DNA of 22,735 nucleotides. It comes from a virus. A program made the translations under genes and the position numbers. Where the stretch lies: IMG/VR virus record IMGVR_UViG_3300025736_000219, positions 1 through 22,735 of that record; one strand, 5' to 3'. This document shows positions 1,115-22,639 of the stretch, in pieces (the stretch's first letter is position 1; each line of letters starts with the position of its first letter). Below the pieces are notes generated by a model, which saw only the letters and a list, made by a program, of their open reading frames with translations, made no database searches and was not told where the DNA came from.

Positions 1115-1143
1115 TCCAAAAAGAAGTGGGGTGTAAACCCCAC
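1115..1143 (-). terminator. Intrinsic terminator after the secreted-protein gene
   Basis: On the minus strand a 7-bp stem GTGGGGT/ACCCCAC with a TTAC loop is followed by TTCTTTTTGG. The stem begins five bases after the stop codon of the upstream gene (1148-1150) and lies before the start of the distal tail gene at 1103. It therefore sits inside the late operon. Confidence 0.75.
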
Positions 1144-1147
1144 CCCA

Positions 1148-1623: not shown

Positions 1624-4600
1624 TTAATATGGCATTACCTCTGAATTTCGATGTATTTCATTTGCTAACCGCCGTTCAAGTTCTTCTAATACTGCTTCTG
1701 CTATCGCTTTTTCGTTCATTCCATCTCGTGCCGAAACTTGTATTGCACCGCTACCTACCGATACGTTTGTCTGGTTGCTGTTTGAGGTATTGTTCTTCAC
1801 CCAATTTGGCGTTGGCATATCCTGTCCGAATATTTTGCCAACCGCTATTCTTGGCACAACCATCTCTCCTGAATGCAAATAGGCAAGGCCTTCCGATTCG
1901 ATGTAACCGCCGCTTGCAAATCCTTTCAGTTCTGACTTTTCAGCTTTTTCTTTTTCAAGTGAAGCCATATCCGCTTTTGCGCTTTGAACCGCTGCGCTGG
2001 CTGCGGAGGCTGCGCTTTGAACCGCTGACACAACGCTTGACACAATCCCTTGTATCTGGCTTGCTGCGTTTTGGGTTGTTGATACCATTGCTTGTGCTGC
2101 ACTTGTTACCAAACCTTGTAAGACTTGGAAATATTCCGTGCTGAGCTTGAGCATTCGTTCACGTAATATTCCTATCTGTTCATCTGTTTTTTGTAAGTAT
2201 TCTTCACGTTTGAGTTGCGCTTCTTGCACGAATAACATATGGGTTTGGGTTTCAAGCCCAAGGATTTCCGCAAAGATTTGTTGAGTAATTGTTATTTCTT
2301 CTGCAAACATTATCCTCGCTTGTTCTATTAGTAACCCTGCAAAGTTGTTTACGTTTGCCATGATAGCGTCCAAAGCTAATTGTTGTGCTTCCGCCATAAC
2401 ATCATTGATCGTTGTCAAAACAGTTGTTTTAAAATCCATTATCATCTGTGAGTTTTCTGCCACAAACTGTCCCAGTTGGTCTATTTGACCGCTATTATCA
2501 GTTGATATCCCGATCTGAGCGTTAAGTGCATCCATGGACGTTGCCACTCGTTGAGCCACATCCTCTATCATGACTGGAATTCCTTCGAGTTCTTGAACCA
2601 TAGCGTCTTTCGCCTCGAGCGTCTTTTCAGTAACCTGTTTCGGCATATCAGCCATGGCATCTGTGATACGGGTTTTTATTCCTTCGGTTTCTTCCGGCAA
2701 ACCTTGTAACTGAACCAACATCTCGTCTGTTTCAGTTTTTAAGCCTTCGGATAAACCGCTAAAACTATTTTCCAAACCGCTTGTATCCATCGTTCCGATG
2801 CCTTTTGATAGCATTTCGTTCAATTGTTCGATGGTTGAGGATAAACTTTCAAGGGTTTCCTGCATGGTTTTTTTGACTTCTTCGGTTCCTGCTTTTACCC
2901 CTTCTGCGACCGCAACGCCTGTTTCTTCGGCTTTTGCTTTTGCCTCTTCTGGTAGTTTTCCCATCCCTTCTGTGGCAGCGTCCACCATCTCATCAACTTG
3001 TGTCTTTACAGAATCCGACACACCTTCAACATTTTCTTTTGTTGAAGTTACCATATCTTCTCCTGCTTGATTGACTTCTTCTGCTGCCTCTTCTCCTATA
3101 CCGCCAACACCACTCAGAGTTTGCTCGATGGTTTTTTCTATTTCCTCGCTTGAGGTTTGAATCTCACCACCGACGTTTTGCCAAGTTTCTGCTACAACAC
3201 TTGCCATTTCAGTTGCAACGTCTTGCATATCTCCCATCATGGAAGAAATAGCATCCATCTCACCTTGAGAAAGCCCATCTTTCATAGCTGCTGCTATAAA
3301 GGCAGATAATTCTTGTAACTGTCCTTGTATAGCTCCCTGCATCATGAGTGATTCCATCAAACTGTCAAGGATTGCCTGCTTAAGACTCGCATCAAGGGAT
3401 TGCTTGAATTGGTCGTACTTAAATTCGTTTATAAGGGCTTCTTGTCCTTCTTTTCCCATATCGGCAAAGGCTTTCGAGAACTCTTCACTGCTGCCGTAAA
3501 TAACACCTTGTACCCGTTCCACGTAGGCTTGAAGTTCTCCCATCATGGAATCGTCAAACTCAAAGGTTATGAAACTCTTAATAGCTCCACTCAAGCCTGA
3601 CGACAGTGTGCTTTTTACGCTCTCAAATGTGGAATAGAACCCTTGAGCCTCTGAGGATAGATTATTCACCTTCAAAATGAATTCATCAAGTGATATTTCT
3701 CCGTTCGCCAGAGCTGTTTTAAGGGTATCCATTTCATCCGTAAAGGCTTGACCGATCCCGATGTTCGTGCCGGCAAAGGCATTATTAATGTTTTCCATAA
3801 CACTTTCAAATTCATTCATTGAACTAACAAGAACCGTTGCTTTATTTCCGAGTTCTTCTAACCCTTGTGAGAATTCTTCTTCGGATATCGTTCCCTTGTT
3901 AAGGGCTTCCGCAAGGGCTTCAAACTGTTCTCTCAAAACTTCCGCAGGTTGACCGACTTTTGCAATCGCATCTCTGATCACGGAATAAGCCTCTGCTACG
4001 TCTTGTGCTTTATAACCGAGCTTTTCCAGAGCTTGTATGTATTCTTGCTGAGTGAGTTTTCCATCAACGAAAGATTGATCCAATTCGTTGAGTTCTTTTT
4101 GTAGGAATACGGATGCTTGCCCCGTTTCCTTTATCGCGTCGGTAACTGCCGAATGTTTCCCTGCCAACAATTCAACCTCGTCTGCGAGTTTTTGAATTTC
4201 AGATACATACTCTTCCTGAGTGATAGTGCCTTCCTGGAAAGCATTGTTGAGTTCGTCCATACGGGCTTTATATTTTCCGCTTGCAATTCCCATCTTTCCG
4301 AGACCATCACTAATAACCCTGAATGAACTGCCAACTGTTTCTGCAAGTGTTTTGAGGTTTTCAAGTTCAACTGCAAGCTCCCCTAAATCCTCGCCTGCTT
4401 CGAGTTTGATGGTTGCTTTTTCTGCTATATCGTCAAGCATTTGGCCTAAACCTGTGTCCATTAATCCTTGTTGATCCAAAGCTGCATAGGTGGTAGTAAT
4501 CCCAACCGAAACTGACGCTACCGTCTGAGCTTTTTTTGCAAGGGCTTCAAGTTCTATTCCTGCCTGCTTAATTGCGTCTTTTCTTCCTTTTTCTCCAAAG

Positions 4601-10966: not shown

Positions 10967-10990
10967 AAAAAAGGGGCTTTTCAGCCCCTT
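10967..10990 (-). terminator. Intrinsic terminator between tail tube and chaperone genes
   Basis: On the minus strand AAGGGGCT-GAAA-AGCCCCTT is followed by a T run and then at once by the GGAGG of the chaperone gene. It lies four bases after the tail tube stop codon (10994-10996) and has a stable GAAA loop. It probably limits downstream expression relative to the abundant tail tube protein. Confidence 0.82.
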
Positions 10991-13613: not shown

Positions 13614-13642
13614 CAAAAAGAAAGGAAGGCCTTAAGCCTCCC
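13614..13642 (-). terminator. Intrinsic terminator after the capsid block
   Basis: On the minus strand GGGAGGC-TTAAG-GCCTTCC forms a 7-bp stem with one G-U pair, followed by TTTCTTTTTG. The stem starts directly after the stop codon of the 86-residue gene (13643-13645), and the next ribosome binding site follows the T run. It separates the capsid genes from the connector genes. Confidence 0.65.
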
Positions 13643-13900
13643 TTATACTTTCTTCAACCATTTCTCAAATTTCTTATAGTCATTAGGTTCAAAGAAAACC
13701 TTATCGCCTCTGTTAAACTTCCTACCCTTATAAGTGAGGGTTGCGAAACCGGTTATCTCAGCTTTAATTTCATCTGATGGCTTCATCTGCTTTGAAACCG
13801 GTTTGGATTCTTTGACCTCGTCCTTTTCCTTTTCAATCTGTTCCGCCATCTTTGGCTTCCAATGCTTCTTTTCCTCTTTCTTTTCGTTTTTCTCGCTCAT
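13643..13900 (-). CDS. Small charged protein downstream of major capsid
   Basis: 85 residues from the ATG at 13900 (AGGGAG nine bases upstream; an in-frame TTG at 13903 is less likely). The first 50 residues are highly charged and low complexity (Lys, Glu, with KKEEKKHWKPKMAEQ). The C-terminal 35 residues look folded: ITGFATLTYKGRKFNRGDKV followed by an F-x-P-x-D-Y-x-K-F helix. Small genes at this place often encode head-decoration or DNA-packaging accessory proteins, and the C-terminal strand-helix resembles YqbF/HI1506-type short domains, but I cannot assign it with confidence. It starts within 20 bases of the capsid stop, so it is co-expressed. Confidence 0.7.
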   Translation of the reverse strand: MSEKNEKKEEKKHWKPKMAEQIEKEKDEVKESKPVSKQMKPSDEIKAEITGFATLTYKGRKFNRGDKVFFEPNDYKKFEKWLKKV

Positions 13901-17795: not shown

Positions 17796-19275
17796 TTTGC
17801 CTCAACCCCCGGAGGATATCGGTTAGTGTATCCTTTAAATCATCTGCCTTATCCTTTTTTTCCAAACCCGTATTGAATCCCAACATGGCTATTGGAAGGT
17901 TTGCCCATTCTTCTTCGTATCTCTCTGTTTTGATTTCAGGAACCATTATATTTAAAACACTTTGTATTTGATTGACAGTCATCTGGCTCACAAAAGGTTG
18001 TAAAGACCCACTGATCTCTGTACGATCTTTTACATCATTGTCTTCAAATTCAAACCACCAACACTTAATATTCATTTCTTCAAGAATATAATCAATAACT
18101 TCTTCAATTTCCCTTCTTAAAGGTCTGAAAACACTTTTCTCAGTAACTCTTTCAGACTCTAAGGCAGTTGCCCGTGTATAATCGTCCGTTTCGCCCGTAT
18201 ATATGGGCGGCAGCTGGAAAGATGATCTGATTTTTTTCCGGTTTTGCTCATCGTATTCAACAAAGAGTGCATCTTGTTGCATCAGATGAGCTAACGGCTC
18301 AAACCTCACCTTAACCTGCTTCTTTTTTTCGTCGCTAATAACGGCTTCGTCTTCCTCAGGAGCTGCCTCAAGTAATAAAATCTTGTGAGAATTGTCTACC
18401 CCCTTGGATTCATTGAGATATTCTTTGAGATTATTCATGCCTTCCTCTGAAAGCACACCACCTTCAACAATCACTGCCATGGGGATATGTCTTCCGTTTT
18501 CAAAATAATAGTAATTGATCAGTTCTGATTTCCTGCTGCCCAAAACAGATAAGAGGTTTCCCATGTATCTTGGAATGCCATAGGGTGTTCCGGGAGCGTC
18601 TATCTTGAAAGCGATTATCTCAGTGGCCTTTTTATCGTATGGGTATTTCCCGTATTCGCCTGTCTCATAATGCAGGTCTCTTGGGTCTCCAAAATCCTTG
18701 AAATAGACCTTTTGATTCAGACTGTTTATTTGGGCAAACTTAAAAAACCTCCGCTTTTGCGTGATGTGCTTAGGGCCGTAAGGCGTTCTGACTACGCGTG
18801 TATGAATAACAGCCGTTGGTTTTAAAAATCTCATGGTTACAGGAGGAATATGCGAAAACCCAACGATTTCATCAAGTGGGTTTCTAATGACCTCCAGATA
18901 ACCGGTCCCTGTTCTTTCTCTGTCTTCTAAGGCCTTTTGAAGGTTTTTGATGAGATTGTTTTCTGCTGAGTAGTCAAACAGCAGCTCTATGCTCTTCTTT
19001 TCTTCCAAGGCTTCTGGGTTTTCTTTTTCCTTCTCGGCCAAACCATCGGCCAATCTTAAACGCCAAGTCGTGATCACGTTATTCTTATACGCTCTGATAC
19101 ACTGGGGAAGGATGTTTGATTCTTCCACGAATGTCTCAAGTATCAGCGCATCGTATTTGGGTGTATAGACTTTATCCACCCCAAAATAACTGATAAACGG
19201 ATCATCGATTTTTTTAGACTCGATGGGTGTTTCCCGTTTAACGATATTTACCTTTATTTCCTTATTTTTATTCAT
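17773..19275 (-). CDS. Portal protein
   Basis: 500 residues, PBSX XkdE-like. The portal is the dodecameric ring at one capsid vertex through which DNA is packaged and ejected. Seen in the sequence: an N-terminal basic segment, AYKNNVITTWRLRL, a conserved region ERTGTGYLEVIRNPLDEIVG, a DAPGTPYGIPRYMGNLLSVL helix region, VIVEGGVLSEEGMNNLKEYL, and a C-terminal DDYTRATALESERVTEKSVF followed by the helix FRPLRREIEEVIDYILEEM. The start ATG overlaps the terminase stop (ATGA) and the gene overlaps the MuF gene by 23 bases, as in many packaging clusters. No frameshift is seen. Confidence 0.92.
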   Translation of the reverse strand: MNKNKEIKVNIVKRETPIESKKIDDPFISYFGVDKVYTPKYDALILETFVEESNILPQCIRAYKNNVITTWRLRLADGLAEKEKENPEALEEKKSIELLFDYSAENNLIKNLQKALEDRERTGTGYLEVIRNPLDEIVGFSHIPPVTMRFLKPTAVIHTRVVRTPYGPKHITQKRRFFKFAQINSLNQKVYFKDFGDPRDLHYETGEYGKYPYDKKATEIIAFKIDAPGTPYGIPRYMGNLLSVLGSRKSELINYYYFENGRHIPMAVIVEGGVLSEEGMNNLKEYLNESKGVDNSHKILLLEAAPEEDEAVISDEKKKQVKVRFEPLAHLMQQDALFVEYDEQNRKKIRSSFQLPPIYTGETDDYTRATALESERVTEKSVFRPLRREIEEVIDYILEEMNIKCWWFEFEDNDVKDRTEISGSLQPFVSQMTVNQIQSVLNIMVPEIKTERYEEEWANLPIAMLGFNTGLEKKDKADDLKDTLTDILRGLRQNEHGSHG

Positions 19276-20651
19276 AATTTATGCCCCTTTGGTCTCTTTT
19301 TCTTTCCGGGTAATTTGAAGAGGATATCACCGATATAGGAAACGGTATCGACTACATCATCATTTGCCCCGTTCGGAAATGAAGTTAATTGTTCTTCCAA
19401 GACATCCTTGTTGGGAATACTTCTGACAATATAGACCTTTCTATTTTCAAAATGAGGTGTTATTCTCATGGCGCGGGTAACTTTATCCCCCGATGGTTTC
19501 AGTTCTAAAACGGGTATGGCGGTATTCGCCGTCAGCCATTGTGGTAAAGCTGCCTGATACTGCACGGATTCTATTCCAATTCGTAATGGTTTCCATTTGT
19601 TGTGATAATGGGTAACGATCTTTACCTGCTCGGGGAACAAGATATGATCCACGTAAAGATCCAACAGATAAACATTTTTTTGTTGGTCTATTCCGAATGT
19701 CAGCAGGGCAAAATAATCAGCCGTATCCCTTTTTGATATCGCGAGGTCTATGGTTTGAAATAGCCGGAGGCCTTTTGGAACCTCTGATGAGTCAAGGTAT
19801 TGAAACCAATCCCGTTTGAAGATGTTTCCCCCGATGATGGATGGCCGTTGCTGGTAAAGGGCATTAAATTCAAAACTACCGATATCTCTTTTTATTTCCT
19901 CGAGGTCTTCGAGGGAATACCGTTCAGGCCATAAGGCTTCACCAAGTTCTCTGCCAATGGGATCATCTTCTTCCGCAATCGCCGGCAATTTGATTTGAGT
20001 CCATTCGTCCCCCTGCTCTTGAATCAATCTTCCAACCAGATCATCTTCATGCCATCTCGTCATAACAAGAATAATGGCACCGGTTGGAGATAAACGCGTC
20101 CTCAAAGTGGAACCGTACCAGTCCCAGACTCTGTCTCGGTATGTTTTCGAGTTCGCCTCAGCCCTGTTTTTTATCGGATCGTCAATGATGGCAATGTCTG
20201 CACCTCTTCCGGTAATGGGTCCGCCCACACCAGCAGCTACAAGCCCACCTCGATGGCCTTCAATTCCCCAGCGCTGAACCGATTGCGAATCACTTGCCAA
20301 TTTTGTGCCAAATATGTCCGACCATTCATCGATGGTGTGTTTTGCGATTCTTGAAAAGTCATACGAAAGGTCAGCTGCATAGGATGAGATAATCATTTCT
20401 TTGTCCGGGTGAAAACCTAAATACCATGCAGGAAATTTTTTAGTTACTGTCTCAGACTTTGAATGCCTTGGCGGCAGCATTATCATCAATTTCTTAATTT
20501 TTCCGTTGACGACATCTTGCAGAGCATCGGTTATGATTTTGTGATGACGCCCTGTTTTCCAATAAAAATGGCCATCCAGTTCAAGGAAGTCAAGGAAACT
20601 ACGCCGTATCAGGTTTCTTCTCGGTGATTCTTCGGTTATCCGCTTTTGCAA
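19272..20651 (-). CDS. terL: Terminase large subunit
   Basis: 459 residues from a TTG start at 20651. No in-frame Met follows until after the ATPase P-loop, and GAGGTGG lies upstream. The ATPase domain has a deviant Walker A, PPRHSKSET (60-68), and Walker B IAIIDDP (153-159), with a coupling segment GAIILVMTRWHEDDLVGRL. The nuclease domain begins near 295, with candidate metal ligands Asp302 (TIDLAIS), Glu361 (IGIESVQY) and Asp431/432 (NGANDDVVDTVSYI), consistent with the TIGR01630/Terminase_6C type. It packages DNA into the prohead and cuts it. It overlaps the small subunit by 53 bases, an unusually long overlap, and the portal start by 4. Confidence 0.95.
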   Translation of the reverse strand: MQKRITEESPRRNLIRRSFLDFLELDGHFYWKTGRHHKIITDALQDVVNGKIKKLMIMLPPRHSKSETVTKKFPAWYLGFHPDKEMIISSYAADLSYDFSRIAKHTIDEWSDIFGTKLASDSQSVQRWGIEGHRGGLVAAGVGGPITGRGADIAIIDDPIKNRAEANSKTYRDRVWDWYGSTLRTRLSPTGAIILVMTRWHEDDLVGRLIQEQGDEWTQIKLPAIAEEDDPIGRELGEALWPERYSLEDLEEIKRDIGSFEFNALYQQRPSIIGGNIFKRDWFQYLDSSEVPKGLRLFQTIDLAISKRDTADYFALLTFGIDQQKNVYLLDLYVDHILFPEQVKIVTHYHNKWKPLRIGIESVQYQAALPQWLTANTAIPVLELKPSGDKVTRAMRITPHFENRKVYIVRSIPNKDVLEEQLTSFPNGANDDVVDTVSYIGDILFKLPGKKKRPKGHKL

Positions 20652-21084
20652 TTTCTCTCACCACCTCAAGTGGCAGTTGATCCAGATCTATTTCGTGGTA
20701 GTTGTTATTCGTGTTTTTCATTTCGCCTTTGGTGATTTCCGTGGGCTCGCCTTCTTCCAACCTCGCCTTGTCTATCGCGATCCCCAAACTTTTGGATAAG
20801 TCAAAAACATCTTTTGCCGTGTTCTCAACGCCTTGGAGTTTTCTCTTAATAACTTCAAATAAATCAGACAGTATGTCGAGTCTGGATTCTTTTGCGTAGC
20901 TCTTTCTTGCTTCGGTTGCTTTTTTTGTTTTGGAACGTTCCATTTTTATGTTGTTTTTTTTTAGAATTCTTGATATTGAGGCTTTACCTCGGTTGAATTC
21001 TCTCGAAACTTTGCTTATGGAAGAGCCTTTTTCGATGGCCTCAACAATAGCCATCTCTTCGTTTTTCGTGATTCTTTTAGCCAT
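20599..21084 (-). CDS. Terminase small subunit (probable)
   Basis: 161 residues from the ATG at 21084 (MAKRITKNEE), chosen because GGAGG lies eight bases upstream. A longer in-frame start at 21138 would run through a terminator hairpin and has no ribosome binding site. The N-terminal 45 residues form a helix-turn-helix (AIVEAIEKGSSISKVSREFN followed by RGKASISRIL), and the rest is helical with an acidic C-terminus. It lies directly upstream of the large terminase gene, the expected place for the DNA-recognition subunit that selects the packaging site. Sequence conservation of this family is poor, so the call rests on domain type and position. A regulator is the alternative, but its overlap with terL favours terminase. 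Confidence 0.78.
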   Translation of the reverse strand: MAKRITKNEEMAIVEAIEKGSSISKVSREFNRGKASISRILKKNNIKMERSKTKKATEARKSYAKESRLDILSDLFEVIKRKLQGVENTAKDVFDLSKSLGIAIDKARLEEGEPTEITKGEMKNTNNNYHEIDLDQLPLEVVREIAKADNRRITEKKPDTA

Positions 21085-21108
21085 CAAGGCCACCTCCTTT
21101 TTTCCAAT

Positions 21109-21135
21109 AAAAAAACCCGCCAAAAAAAGGCGGGT
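21109..21135 (-). terminator. Leader terminator of the terminase operon
   Basis: On the minus strand ACCCGCC-loop of seven T-GGCGGGT is followed by seven T and then ATTGG, with the terminase ribosome binding site a few bases on. It lies about 50 bases downstream of the predicted start of the promoter at 21191-21219, so transcripts must pass it. Confidence 0.85.
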
Positions 21136-21190
21136 CATTATGGAGTTGATTCAGAGATTACAAATATCTTTAAAACTATAATCTTACCCT

Positions 21191-21219
21191 ATTTTACCTT
21201 ATTGTGCGTACTTTGTCAA
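21191..21219 (-). promoter_or_regulatory. Sigma-70-type promoter of the late operon
   Basis: On the minus strand TTGACA (21219-21214), a 17-bp spacer and TAAAAT (21196-21191) are close to the vegetative consensus. The start is expected near 21184. A short inverted repeat (CTTTG/CAAAG, 21232-21247) lies just upstream of the -35. The promoter is directed at the terminase operon. Confidence 0.85.
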
Positions 21220-21250: not shown

Positions 21251-21306
21251 GTGAACTACCCACCACTTCAAAACCGTTTCTCAGGTTTAAGTGGCGGGTA
21301 GTTCAC
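21251..21306. repeat. 18-bp inverted repeat upstream of the late promoter
   Basis: Arms 21251-21268 (GTGAACTACCCACCACTT) and 21289-21306 pair at 17 of 18 positions, and the one mismatch becomes a G-U pair in minus-strand RNA. An inner 5-bp pair (AAACC/GGTTT) extends the stem. No T run follows on either strand, so it is not a simple terminator. The arms resemble the subterminal hairpins of IS200/IS605-type elements, but no transposase gene is present. It could also serve as an operator, a packaging site, or an RNA processing hairpin. It starts one base after the stop codon of the regulator gene. Confidence 0.85.
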
Positions 21307-21307
21307 A

Positions 21308-21874
21308 TCAATATGATACCATAATTTTCCACAATGATCTTCTTTTAATTTTTCTAATTGCCGCTTCAGACAAGTTCATTTTAGCTCCTATCTCTCTATT
21401 GCTCAAGGTGCTATATCCCTTTGCTTTTTCTCTTTTTTCATAATCATGATTGATAAAACTATAAAAAAGGACCTGAGCTTCTCTGGAAGTGATCTCAGAC
21501 AACCATTTTTCAACCACTTTACAGACAACTCCCCCCGCGTATTGAACGATGATCCCCGCTATCTGCTTATCATCGAATTGGATCACATCCTTCATCTTCA
21601 ACAGTTCCTTTTTTAATTCAATATCTCCGGGAAGGGCGTTTTGGTACAAAGGGGGTTGAGCCTCGCTCCAATCGATTTTATTTTCTTCTTGATTCCAAAA
21701 CAGATGAACCCTCTTGTTGAGCTTCTTGACTAACGCTGTTTTATACTTTTGTAGAATCTCAACAACATCCGAGGATGAAAACGCTTCCCTATTTTTTACG
21801 TTATAATCTTTGTGTGTGTTATTATTTTTATCTATATTCCCCGACTTGTTCGGGGCTTTTTCTTGTATTTCCAC
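21308..21874 (-). CDS. Late-gene transcription regulator (ArpU/sigma-region-4-like)
   Basis: 188 residues from a GTG start at 21874; a G-rich site (GGGGGGAT) lies upstream and there is no later Met before residue 94. The C-terminal 60 residues resemble sigma region 4 or ArpU-type regulators: ITSREAQVLFYSFINHDYEK followed by LSNREIGAKMNLSEAAIRKI, with the helix-turn-helix at about 156-184. The N-terminal 30 residues are Asn/Lys rich and disordered. It lies directly upstream of the late promoter, the usual place for a late activator in phages of this kind, so activation of the packaging and structural operon is a fair inference. It overlaps the Nudix gene by 43 bases. Confidence 0.75.
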   Translation of the reverse strand: MEIQEKAPNKSGNIDKNNNTHKDYNVKNREAFSSSDVVEILQKYKTALVKKLNKRVHLFWNQEENKIDWSEAQPPLYQNALPGDIELKKELLKMKDVIQFDDKQIAGIIVQYAGGVVCKVVEKWLSEITSREAQVLFYSFINHDYEKREKAKGYSTLSNREIGAKMNLSEAAIRKIKRRSLWKIMVSY

Positions 21875-22431
21875 GGAGATCCCCCCCAGTCCTTTTCGAG
21901 CAGGTCAAGCACGTACACCGCCCACGTCTCAAGATTTCTTTTTTTTAACTCAGAAACTGTCAAAAACTCCCAGCAAGGGATCTCATTCGAGGGTCTTAAC
22001 TCTCCGTTGTATTCGGTAATGATCTGAGCAAAGCCAAGATGCACCTTGTCGACTTCTGTGTCATTAAGCTGAATATATATTTCTCCAAACGTTTTATGAG
22101 GAGTGATTCCAAGTTCCTCAATACATTCCCTGTCTCTTCCGTTGAGGATTCCCTCGTATCCATATCCATCTGACGGGTGTATATGTCCTCCAATGCCAAT
22201 TGTCCATTGTCCTTCAAGGCGCTCTTCATTCCCTTTTTTTCTCTGATAAGCAAGAATTCTTCCATCTTCTCTCAAAAGAACACAATAGGGGGTAATGTGC
22301 CGGTAAGCCATATCCTTTTCAGCGTCTCTTCTGATTTCCCAAATCCCGAACCGTTCAACAAACTTTTCAAAGTCGTCAAAGGCCATGTCCGCAGGCACAC
22401 ACAAAACCATCTCATCCATCTTTCCCATCAT
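21832..22431 (-). CDS. Nudix hydrolase (COG4112-like predicted phosphoesterase)
   Basis: 199 residues from tandem ATGs at 22431/22428, with GGAGG four to seven bases upstream. The N-terminal half matches the family pattern of VLCVPADMAFDDFEKF, a Y-R-H-I-T-P-Y segment and ILAYQRKKGNEERLEGQWTI. The Nudix box is GGHIHPSDGYGYE followed by R101-E102 and E105-E106 (RECIEELGI); the loop between Gly and Glu is longer than the standard motif, as expected in this subfamily. Such enzymes hydrolyse a nucleoside diphosphate linked to another group with Mg2+; the substrate is not known. The gene overlaps the XRE gene by four bases. Its C-terminus contains the G7 run that also forms the ribosome binding site of the regulator gene. 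Its role in the phage is unclear: it may alter nucleotide pools or act as a moron. Confidence 0.85.
   Translation of the reverse strand: MMGKMDEMVLCVPADMAFDDFEKFVERFGIWEIRRDAEKDMAYRHITPYCVLLREDGRILAYQRKKGNEERLEGQWTIGIGGHIHPSDGYGYEGILNGRDRECIEELGITPHKTFGEIYIQLNDTEVDKVHLGFAQIITEYNGELRPSNEIPCWEFLTVSELKKRNLETWAVYVLDLLEKDWGGSPWKYKKKPRTSRGI
21839..21862 (+). terminator. Possible plus-strand terminator inside the regulator gene
   Basis: On the plus strand CCCCGA-CTTGT-TCGGGG is followed by CTTTTTC. It lies in the first codons of the 188-residue regulator gene and overlaps the end of the Nudix gene. No plus-strand gene is seen upstream, so it could stop an antisense transcript or be chance. On the minus strand the same hairpin lies near the regulator start. 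Confidence 0.4.
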
Positions 22432-22619
22432 TTCGCCTCCATTCTCTTTTTGAAAAAATCTCTCAAAATTTGATTGTGATAAACATTAACGATACTCAAA
22501 TCCCGCCGTGTTCGTTCGTGATATGAAATGTCCATGGGATTTAATCCGGTTCTTTCTGCAAGTTCTTTCTGAGAAATTTTCAGTTTCATTCTTTTCGCTT
22601 TAACCTCTTTCCCTGTCAT
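22428..22619 (-). CDS. XRE-family helix-turn-helix protein
   Basis: 63 residues from the ATG at 22619, chosen because AAAGGGG lies nine bases upstream; the ATG at 22628 abuts that site. The protein is almost entirely one helix-turn-helix: GKEVKAKRMKLKISQKELAE with the recognition part RTGLNPMDISYHERTRRD, then a short basic C-terminus. It is a DNA-binding regulator, probably a dimer, and may control this short operon. Its stop overlaps the Nudix start (ATGA), so translation is coupled. Lacking an effector domain, it resembles small Cro-like or host XRE regulators. Confidence 0.85.
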   Translation of the reverse strand: MTGKEVKAKRMKLKISQKELAERTGLNPMDISYHERTRRDLSIVNVYHNQILRDFFKKRMEAK

Positions 22620-22639
22620 TTCCGTCATCCCCTTTAAGA

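Follow-up and report, generated by a model that had tools for sequence, protein, structure and literature searches.

Q systems depend on two DNA elements, a -10-like sequence within the initially transcribed region and a QBE between the -35 and -10 elements, and they act on terminators (PMC6606751). The core of 21Q has a sigma-region-4-like fold (PMC6606751). A -10-like sequence at -1 to +5 is likewise required by AlpA (PMC9371919), whose terminators start 54 and 26 nt past the transcription start (PMC7969949). The stretch of DNA analysed here (22,735 nucleotides; hereafter the window) corresponds to a viral contig of 22.7 kb whose packaging, head and tail genes are located on the minus strand. 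Judged from sequence comparison, it rather probably belongs to a tailed phage of the temperate type and harbors a late control region governed by antitermination in the manner of lambda Q or AlpA. The regulator family of this region has not been described as an antiterminator before, and Q-type antitermination is the best reading of its role. Our view of the regulator as a putative promoter-loaded antiterminator is based on the leader elements, which correspond to the published requirements of Q and AlpA; the leader layout of phi80 and the fold of 21Q are further precedents.

Promoter, terminator and terS start in the late leader

The late promoter on the minus strand, TTGACA-17-TAAAAT (21219-21191), agrees with the consensus at 11 of 12 bases; its -35 element TTGACA occupies positions 21214..21219 and its -10 element TAAAAT positions 21191..21196. 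Transcription is predicted to start at about 21184. Downstream on the same strand follows an intrinsic terminator (21109..21136; -15.3 kcal/mol) with a GC-rich 8-bp stem (GACCCGCC/GGCGGGTT, 21136-21114), a 7-nt loop and a T7 run (21115-21109). Its stem begins 48 nt from the predicted start, and the distance from the -10 element to the terminator is 60 nt. The ribosome-binding site AAGGAGG (21093..21099, minus strand), 10 nt downstream of the T run, belongs to the first late gene, which encodes the terminase small subunit (terS; 20599..21084, minus strand, ATG 21084-21082). This gene shows weak matches to phrog_1482 and phrog_3802 and precedes the gene of the terminase large subunit (19272..20651, minus strand; phrog_38, E 6e-121). 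An upstream in-frame ATG at 21138 was rejected as the start of terS, because it lacks a ribosome site and is positioned at the hairpin. The search for close relatives of TerS yielded just one near-identical contig. A second contig from another sample, 99.9% identical to the window, has an identical leader.

The separate counts of promoters and terminators in the leader region are at chance level; the combination of a promoter of at least 11/12 with a terminator within 110 nt was absent from all 60 dinucleotide-shuffled versions of the whole window. The preliminary description had proposed a near-consensus promoter about 50 bases ahead of a hairpin-plus-T7 terminator, followed by the terminase gene, and this arrangement is thus confirmed. 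Between the stop codon of the regulator gene and the promoter lies a further, very stable hairpin (21251-21306; 21-nt arms, -36.7 kcal/mol, z -8.5), which resembles a small inserted element and has weak DNA matches in Finegoldia and in a Bacillaceae plasmid. It was set aside as a candidate second terminator, since it lacks a T run and is absent from the related locus L085, which has no space for it.

The regulator family and the conservation of the start-site elements

The gene upstream of the leader (21308..21874, minus strand) encodes a putative late regulator of 188 residues with a sigma70-region-4-like C-terminal domain. The protein matches phrog_35069 (E 3e-19), as do 5/5 members of the alignment, and this family is listed in PHROGs as of unknown function. 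It passes the Pfam model Sigma70_r4 marginally (24.6 bits, cut-off 24.1). In AlphaFold models the window protein reached a pLDDT of 70.5, with most of the C-terminal domain above 90, and the homologue from Marinitoga phage MPV1 reached 80.3. The C-terminal domains of both models give Z values of 7-8 in alignments to sigma region 4 over 60-79 residues. This is the only structural match, and its Foldseek E-values are non-significant, which limits the claim to a sigma-region-4-like domain rather than a specific family. No Q structure is among the fold matches listed, an absence that is uninformative. The Q families PF06530, PF03589 and PF06323 gave no hmmscan match at E 0.1 for five members of the regulator family; lambda Q, used as a control, matched PF03589.

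Homologues of the regulator, with invariant residues that include LQxYK and INHDxE, are present in Marinitoga camini virus 1 and 2 (MCV1, MCV2), in MPV1, in other viral contigs and in 10 of 103 Thermotogota genomes. A single-protein search of the genome contigs with the regulator returned no relatives; they were found by an alignment scan and a whole-genome search. The similarity of regulator and terminase to Marinitoga prophages suggests a host among the Thermotogota. The start of the regulator gene is overlapped by a NUDIX-domain gene (21832-22431), which is preceded by a small HTH_3-like gene (22428-22628). The first codons of the regulator gene form a hairpin (21839-21855, CCCCGA/TCGGGG), which is retained with changed pairs in L085 (about 18-35, CCCCGC/GCGGGG); read from the other strand, a T run comes after it, so that it may stop antisense transcription.

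Inspection of the DNA downstream of each homologue revealed the same succession in at least 11 lineages, namely the promoter, a spacer element, a second -10-like hexamer (10/11) and then a terminator of varying sequence. The relatives' promoters reach up to 12/12 consensus bases, and the terminator stems begin +10 to +57 after the start. The spacer element of the window, GCACAATAAGG (21197..21207, minus strand), was recognized from the family consensus, which is about CACAAAATRTGG and common to the 11 aligned lineages. It abuts the -10 element and is a candidate loading site at the position of a QBE or ABE. The spacer information across lineages amounts to 9.26 bits, compared with 5.11 +/- 0.64 in shuffles. 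The second hexamer, TAAGAT (21181..21186, minus strand; about -2 to +4), is a candidate sigma-dependent pause element identified by lineage comparison. Such a hexamer occurs at offset 9-11 in 10 of the 11 lineages, compared with a mean of 1.5 and a maximum of 7 in shuffles. The second hexamer of L085 reads TATAAA. When the loci are aligned at the -10 element, neither the sequence upstream of the -35 element nor the leader RNA downstream is conserved. The role of likely late regulator, previously proposed for the upstream protein, is supported by this joint conservation of regulator and start-site DNA.

The clearest case is L085, whose regulator is 61% identical and whose terminase genes are of another type. 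It retains TTGAAA-17-TAAAATAGGGTA and a terminator that differs in sequence from that of the window. Its leader RNA is not conserved relative to the window, though the promoter is. MCV1 and MCV2 likewise have identical promoters and different hairpins. The terminases downstream of the layout belong to several unrelated types, thus indicating that the module of regulator, promoter and terminator is inherited apart from the packaging genes.

These comparisons bear on two readings that place the function in the leader RNA. In the first, a leader peptide, a riboswitch or a put-like leader RNA governs the terminator. The leader is indeed short and structured (-30.6 kcal/mol, z -3.0), and the loop CCUUUUUU could, judged by eye, pair with AAAAAAGG of the ribosome site. 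We nevertheless regard such attenuation as very unlikely, given that an Rfam scan found no family, that there is no leader ORF with a ribosome site, that the leader RNA differs between the window and L085 and that the terminator sequences are unrelated between lineages. Of the two options left side by side in the preliminary description, Q-type antitermination has therefore gained from the start-site DNA conserved with the regulator, the hexamer at the pause position and the terminators inside the late operon, while the leader attenuator has lost ground. In the second reading, the terminated transcript has a function of its own. The spacing of promoter and terminator would define a small regulatory RNA of about 75 nt, and lambda 6S is a precedent for a defined short terminated RNA. 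Its sequence is not conserved, which makes this reading extremely improbable.

A composite scan of 288 kb on both strands, for promoters of at least 9/12 that are followed by a -10-like hexamer (offset 9-11) and, within 110 nt, by a terminator, retrieved late leaders of this layout; a weak site in L126 was the only unrelated one. Shuffled versions of these loci yielded on average 0.08 sites per set; the shuffles preserve base composition, and shared ancestry among the lineages remains in these statistics. The strict terminator scan detected a terminator in 14/16 leaders, usually unmatched by shuffles. The hairpins of MPV1 and L102 are followed by weaker T runs, and L097 has no good -35 element. 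The layout was absent directly downstream of the homologues L096, L099, L117, L126, L128 and L130; some contigs end too early to show it. A subfamily of the Marinitoga group (L117, L118, L126, L130; KLVYRM start) is without the promoter-terminator layout directly downstream. One hit, in the Omnitrophota MAG L104, was dismissed as a chance occurrence of the motif.

The leader is not always adjacent to the regulator gene. Its distance is about 0.9 kb in L124 and about 2 kb in Marinitoga lauensis (L103; G001 C7:339707-340178), where stop codons break one regulator copy and the late leader downstream is intact; two more homologues are located on another contig of this species. A comparison of the region between leader terminator and terS in the Marinitoga phages L087 (4142-5929), L088 (6444-7902), L102 and L122 showed differing cargo genes, which are followed by a second similar terminator and a tRNA gene ahead of terS. 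L122 is devoid of cargo genes, suggesting insertion between duplicated terminators.

The reverse search with the DNA motif recovered five sites in the 103 Thermotogota genomes at no more than one mismatch. Four of them are late leaders of regulator-bearing prophages; L167, the fifth, lacks both terminator and regulator. The exact motif is present in 11 viral contigs, four of which were already known to carry the regulator: terminator and regulator were found in 3/3 rescanned contigs, and the fourth is L154 (the L093 contig). The remaining seven contigs have neither.

Internal terminators and the proposed mechanism

Strong terminators are confined to the coding strand of the window, with four of them compared with none on the opposite strand and none in shuffles. 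Apart from the leader terminator, these are T2 after the major head gene (13623..13643), T3 after the major tail protein gene (10972..10989) and T4 (1123..1146), all on the minus strand and inside the late operon. The scan found no minus-strand promoter of at least 10/12 between 21191 and about 3800 and no strong promoter directly after T2 or T3. Two 10/12 matches, at 3786 and 3346, are located within a long reading frame of 2878 residues. The presence of three strong terminators inside the late operon implies that read-through must be processive, and cancelling the leader terminator alone would not suffice for full late expression.

The same scan bears on the proposal that the leader terminator is the end, or insulator, of the early operon and that late transcription depends on leaky read-through or an unseen promoter. 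The terminator does come after the last early gene. There is, however, no space for another promoter between its T run and the ribosome site of terS, neither in the window nor in L085; the next 10/12 promoter matches lie far downstream, and a promoter just ahead of the terminator is conserved in every aligned lineage. We therefore consider the insulator quite unlikely.

According to the Q-type scheme that we favor, host RNA polymerase would start at the strong, unassisted promoter at about 21184 and, without the phage factor, stop about 75 nt further on at the leader terminator. The -10-like hexamer would re-engage sigma shortly after the start and thereby pause the polymerase. The 188-residue protein, presumably made late in the early operon, would bind the spacer element beside the -10 element. 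Most likely, it is loaded onto the polymerase during this pause and renders the enzyme terminator-resistant, so that the loaded enzyme would pass the leader terminator as well as the further terminators of the late operon. The regulator family is now tied to defined DNA elements, which makes a short in vitro test possible.

Comparison with known late-control systems

The RinA and Ltr families and Alt are likewise encoded by small regulator genes located immediately ahead of the late promoter and terS. In eight staphylococcal RinA/Ltr phages, namely phi11 (L139/L142), phi13 (L140), SAP8, phiRS7, QT1, BE21, 55-3 and StB12 (loci L143, L145-L149), the late promoter is followed by a strong hairpin-T terminator ahead of the next gene, and two RinA phages also have a -10-like hexamer at offset 10. 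RinA moreover has a weak similarity to sigma region 4. The comparison brings this terminator to attention in well-studied staphylococcal phages whose late regulators have been described as activators. No terminator was recorded in the strict shuffle runs for SAP8 and Hujiaoplasma, owing to the stretch or the T-run rule, and TP901-1 and A118 have no clear promoter-then-terminator pair. The sequence relationship of the regulator family to these proteins is weak at best: hhalign returned a probability of 20% against RinA, restricted to the HTH, and no match against Ltr.

RinA, Ltr and Alt differ from our proposal in that they are published as activators, with Ltr and Alt binding or needing repeats upstream of the promoter. 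The study of phi13 Ltr reported a promoter element at -15 to -5 and essential upstream repeats and left the terminator unmentioned; its reporter extends to 50 nt past the start (PMC13123087). According to the coordinates determined here, this reporter takes in the hairpin plus a portion of the T run. The phi13 data fit activation and antitermination alike. The essential repeats indicate that Ltr acts, at least in part, upstream of the promoter. A conventional activator of the Ltr/RinA type would raise initiation near the promoter of the window, and the terminator would damp the background and be partly read through at high initiation. Position and size of the regulator fit published late activators; the dependence of phi13 Ltr on upstream repeats (PMC13123087) and the weak Sigma70_r4 and DUF1492 matches of RinA point in the same direction. 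Yet the near-consensus promoters of the window and its relatives would need little help, the -35 element of several relatives starts only a few to 20 nt past the stop codon in otherwise unconserved upstream sequence, and activation leaves the conserved second hexamer and the internal terminators unexplained. This reading is accordingly judged unlikely. Promoter-loaded antitermination as a general late switch of phages with a small regulator before terS, including RinA and Ltr, is a tentative extension that we regard as possible but doubtful; no proposal of antitermination for RinA was found in the literature searched, which covered few subscription papers.

The closest counterparts of the proposed antitermination are the lambdoid Q systems (lambda Q, 21Q, phi80 gp17). 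They have in common with the window a regulator gene just upstream, a strong late promoter with an early terminator, a -10-like sequence near the start and an element between -35 and -10; read-through into the late genes would be a further common trait. In the record annotation of phi80 the pR' terminator lies 58 nt after the -10 element, compared with 60 nt in the window; the layout was taken from this annotation, as our scan missed the pR' promoter. The strict terminator scan also found none within 250 nt at lambda pR', which documents that it overlooks longer or imperfect hairpins. The differences are that lysis genes come first in the lambdoid phages, whereas the late genes of the window start with the terminase, that the -10-like sequence of lambda is located at offset 12 instead of 10, and that the regulator is without a sequence match to the three Pfam families of Q.

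The GafYZ system of the Caulobacter gene transfer agent, in which a phage-like late cluster is subject to both activation and antitermination and a putative element lies between -10 and -35 (PMC11150451), is comparable to the system proposed here, but it is a two-protein system with IHF, and the tested terminator is located after the first gene. AlpA of Pseudomonas aeruginosa is a bacterial death-pathway regulator of other sequence with the binding motif GGGACG. Its -10-like sequence at -1 to +5 corresponds to that of the window at about -2 to +4, its binding element between -35 and -10 has a counterpart in the candidate spacer element, and its terminators at 54 and 26 nt compare with a stem at 48 nt. 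The leader described here would extend Q-type antitermination from proteobacterial phages and AlpA to relatives of Thermotogota phages.
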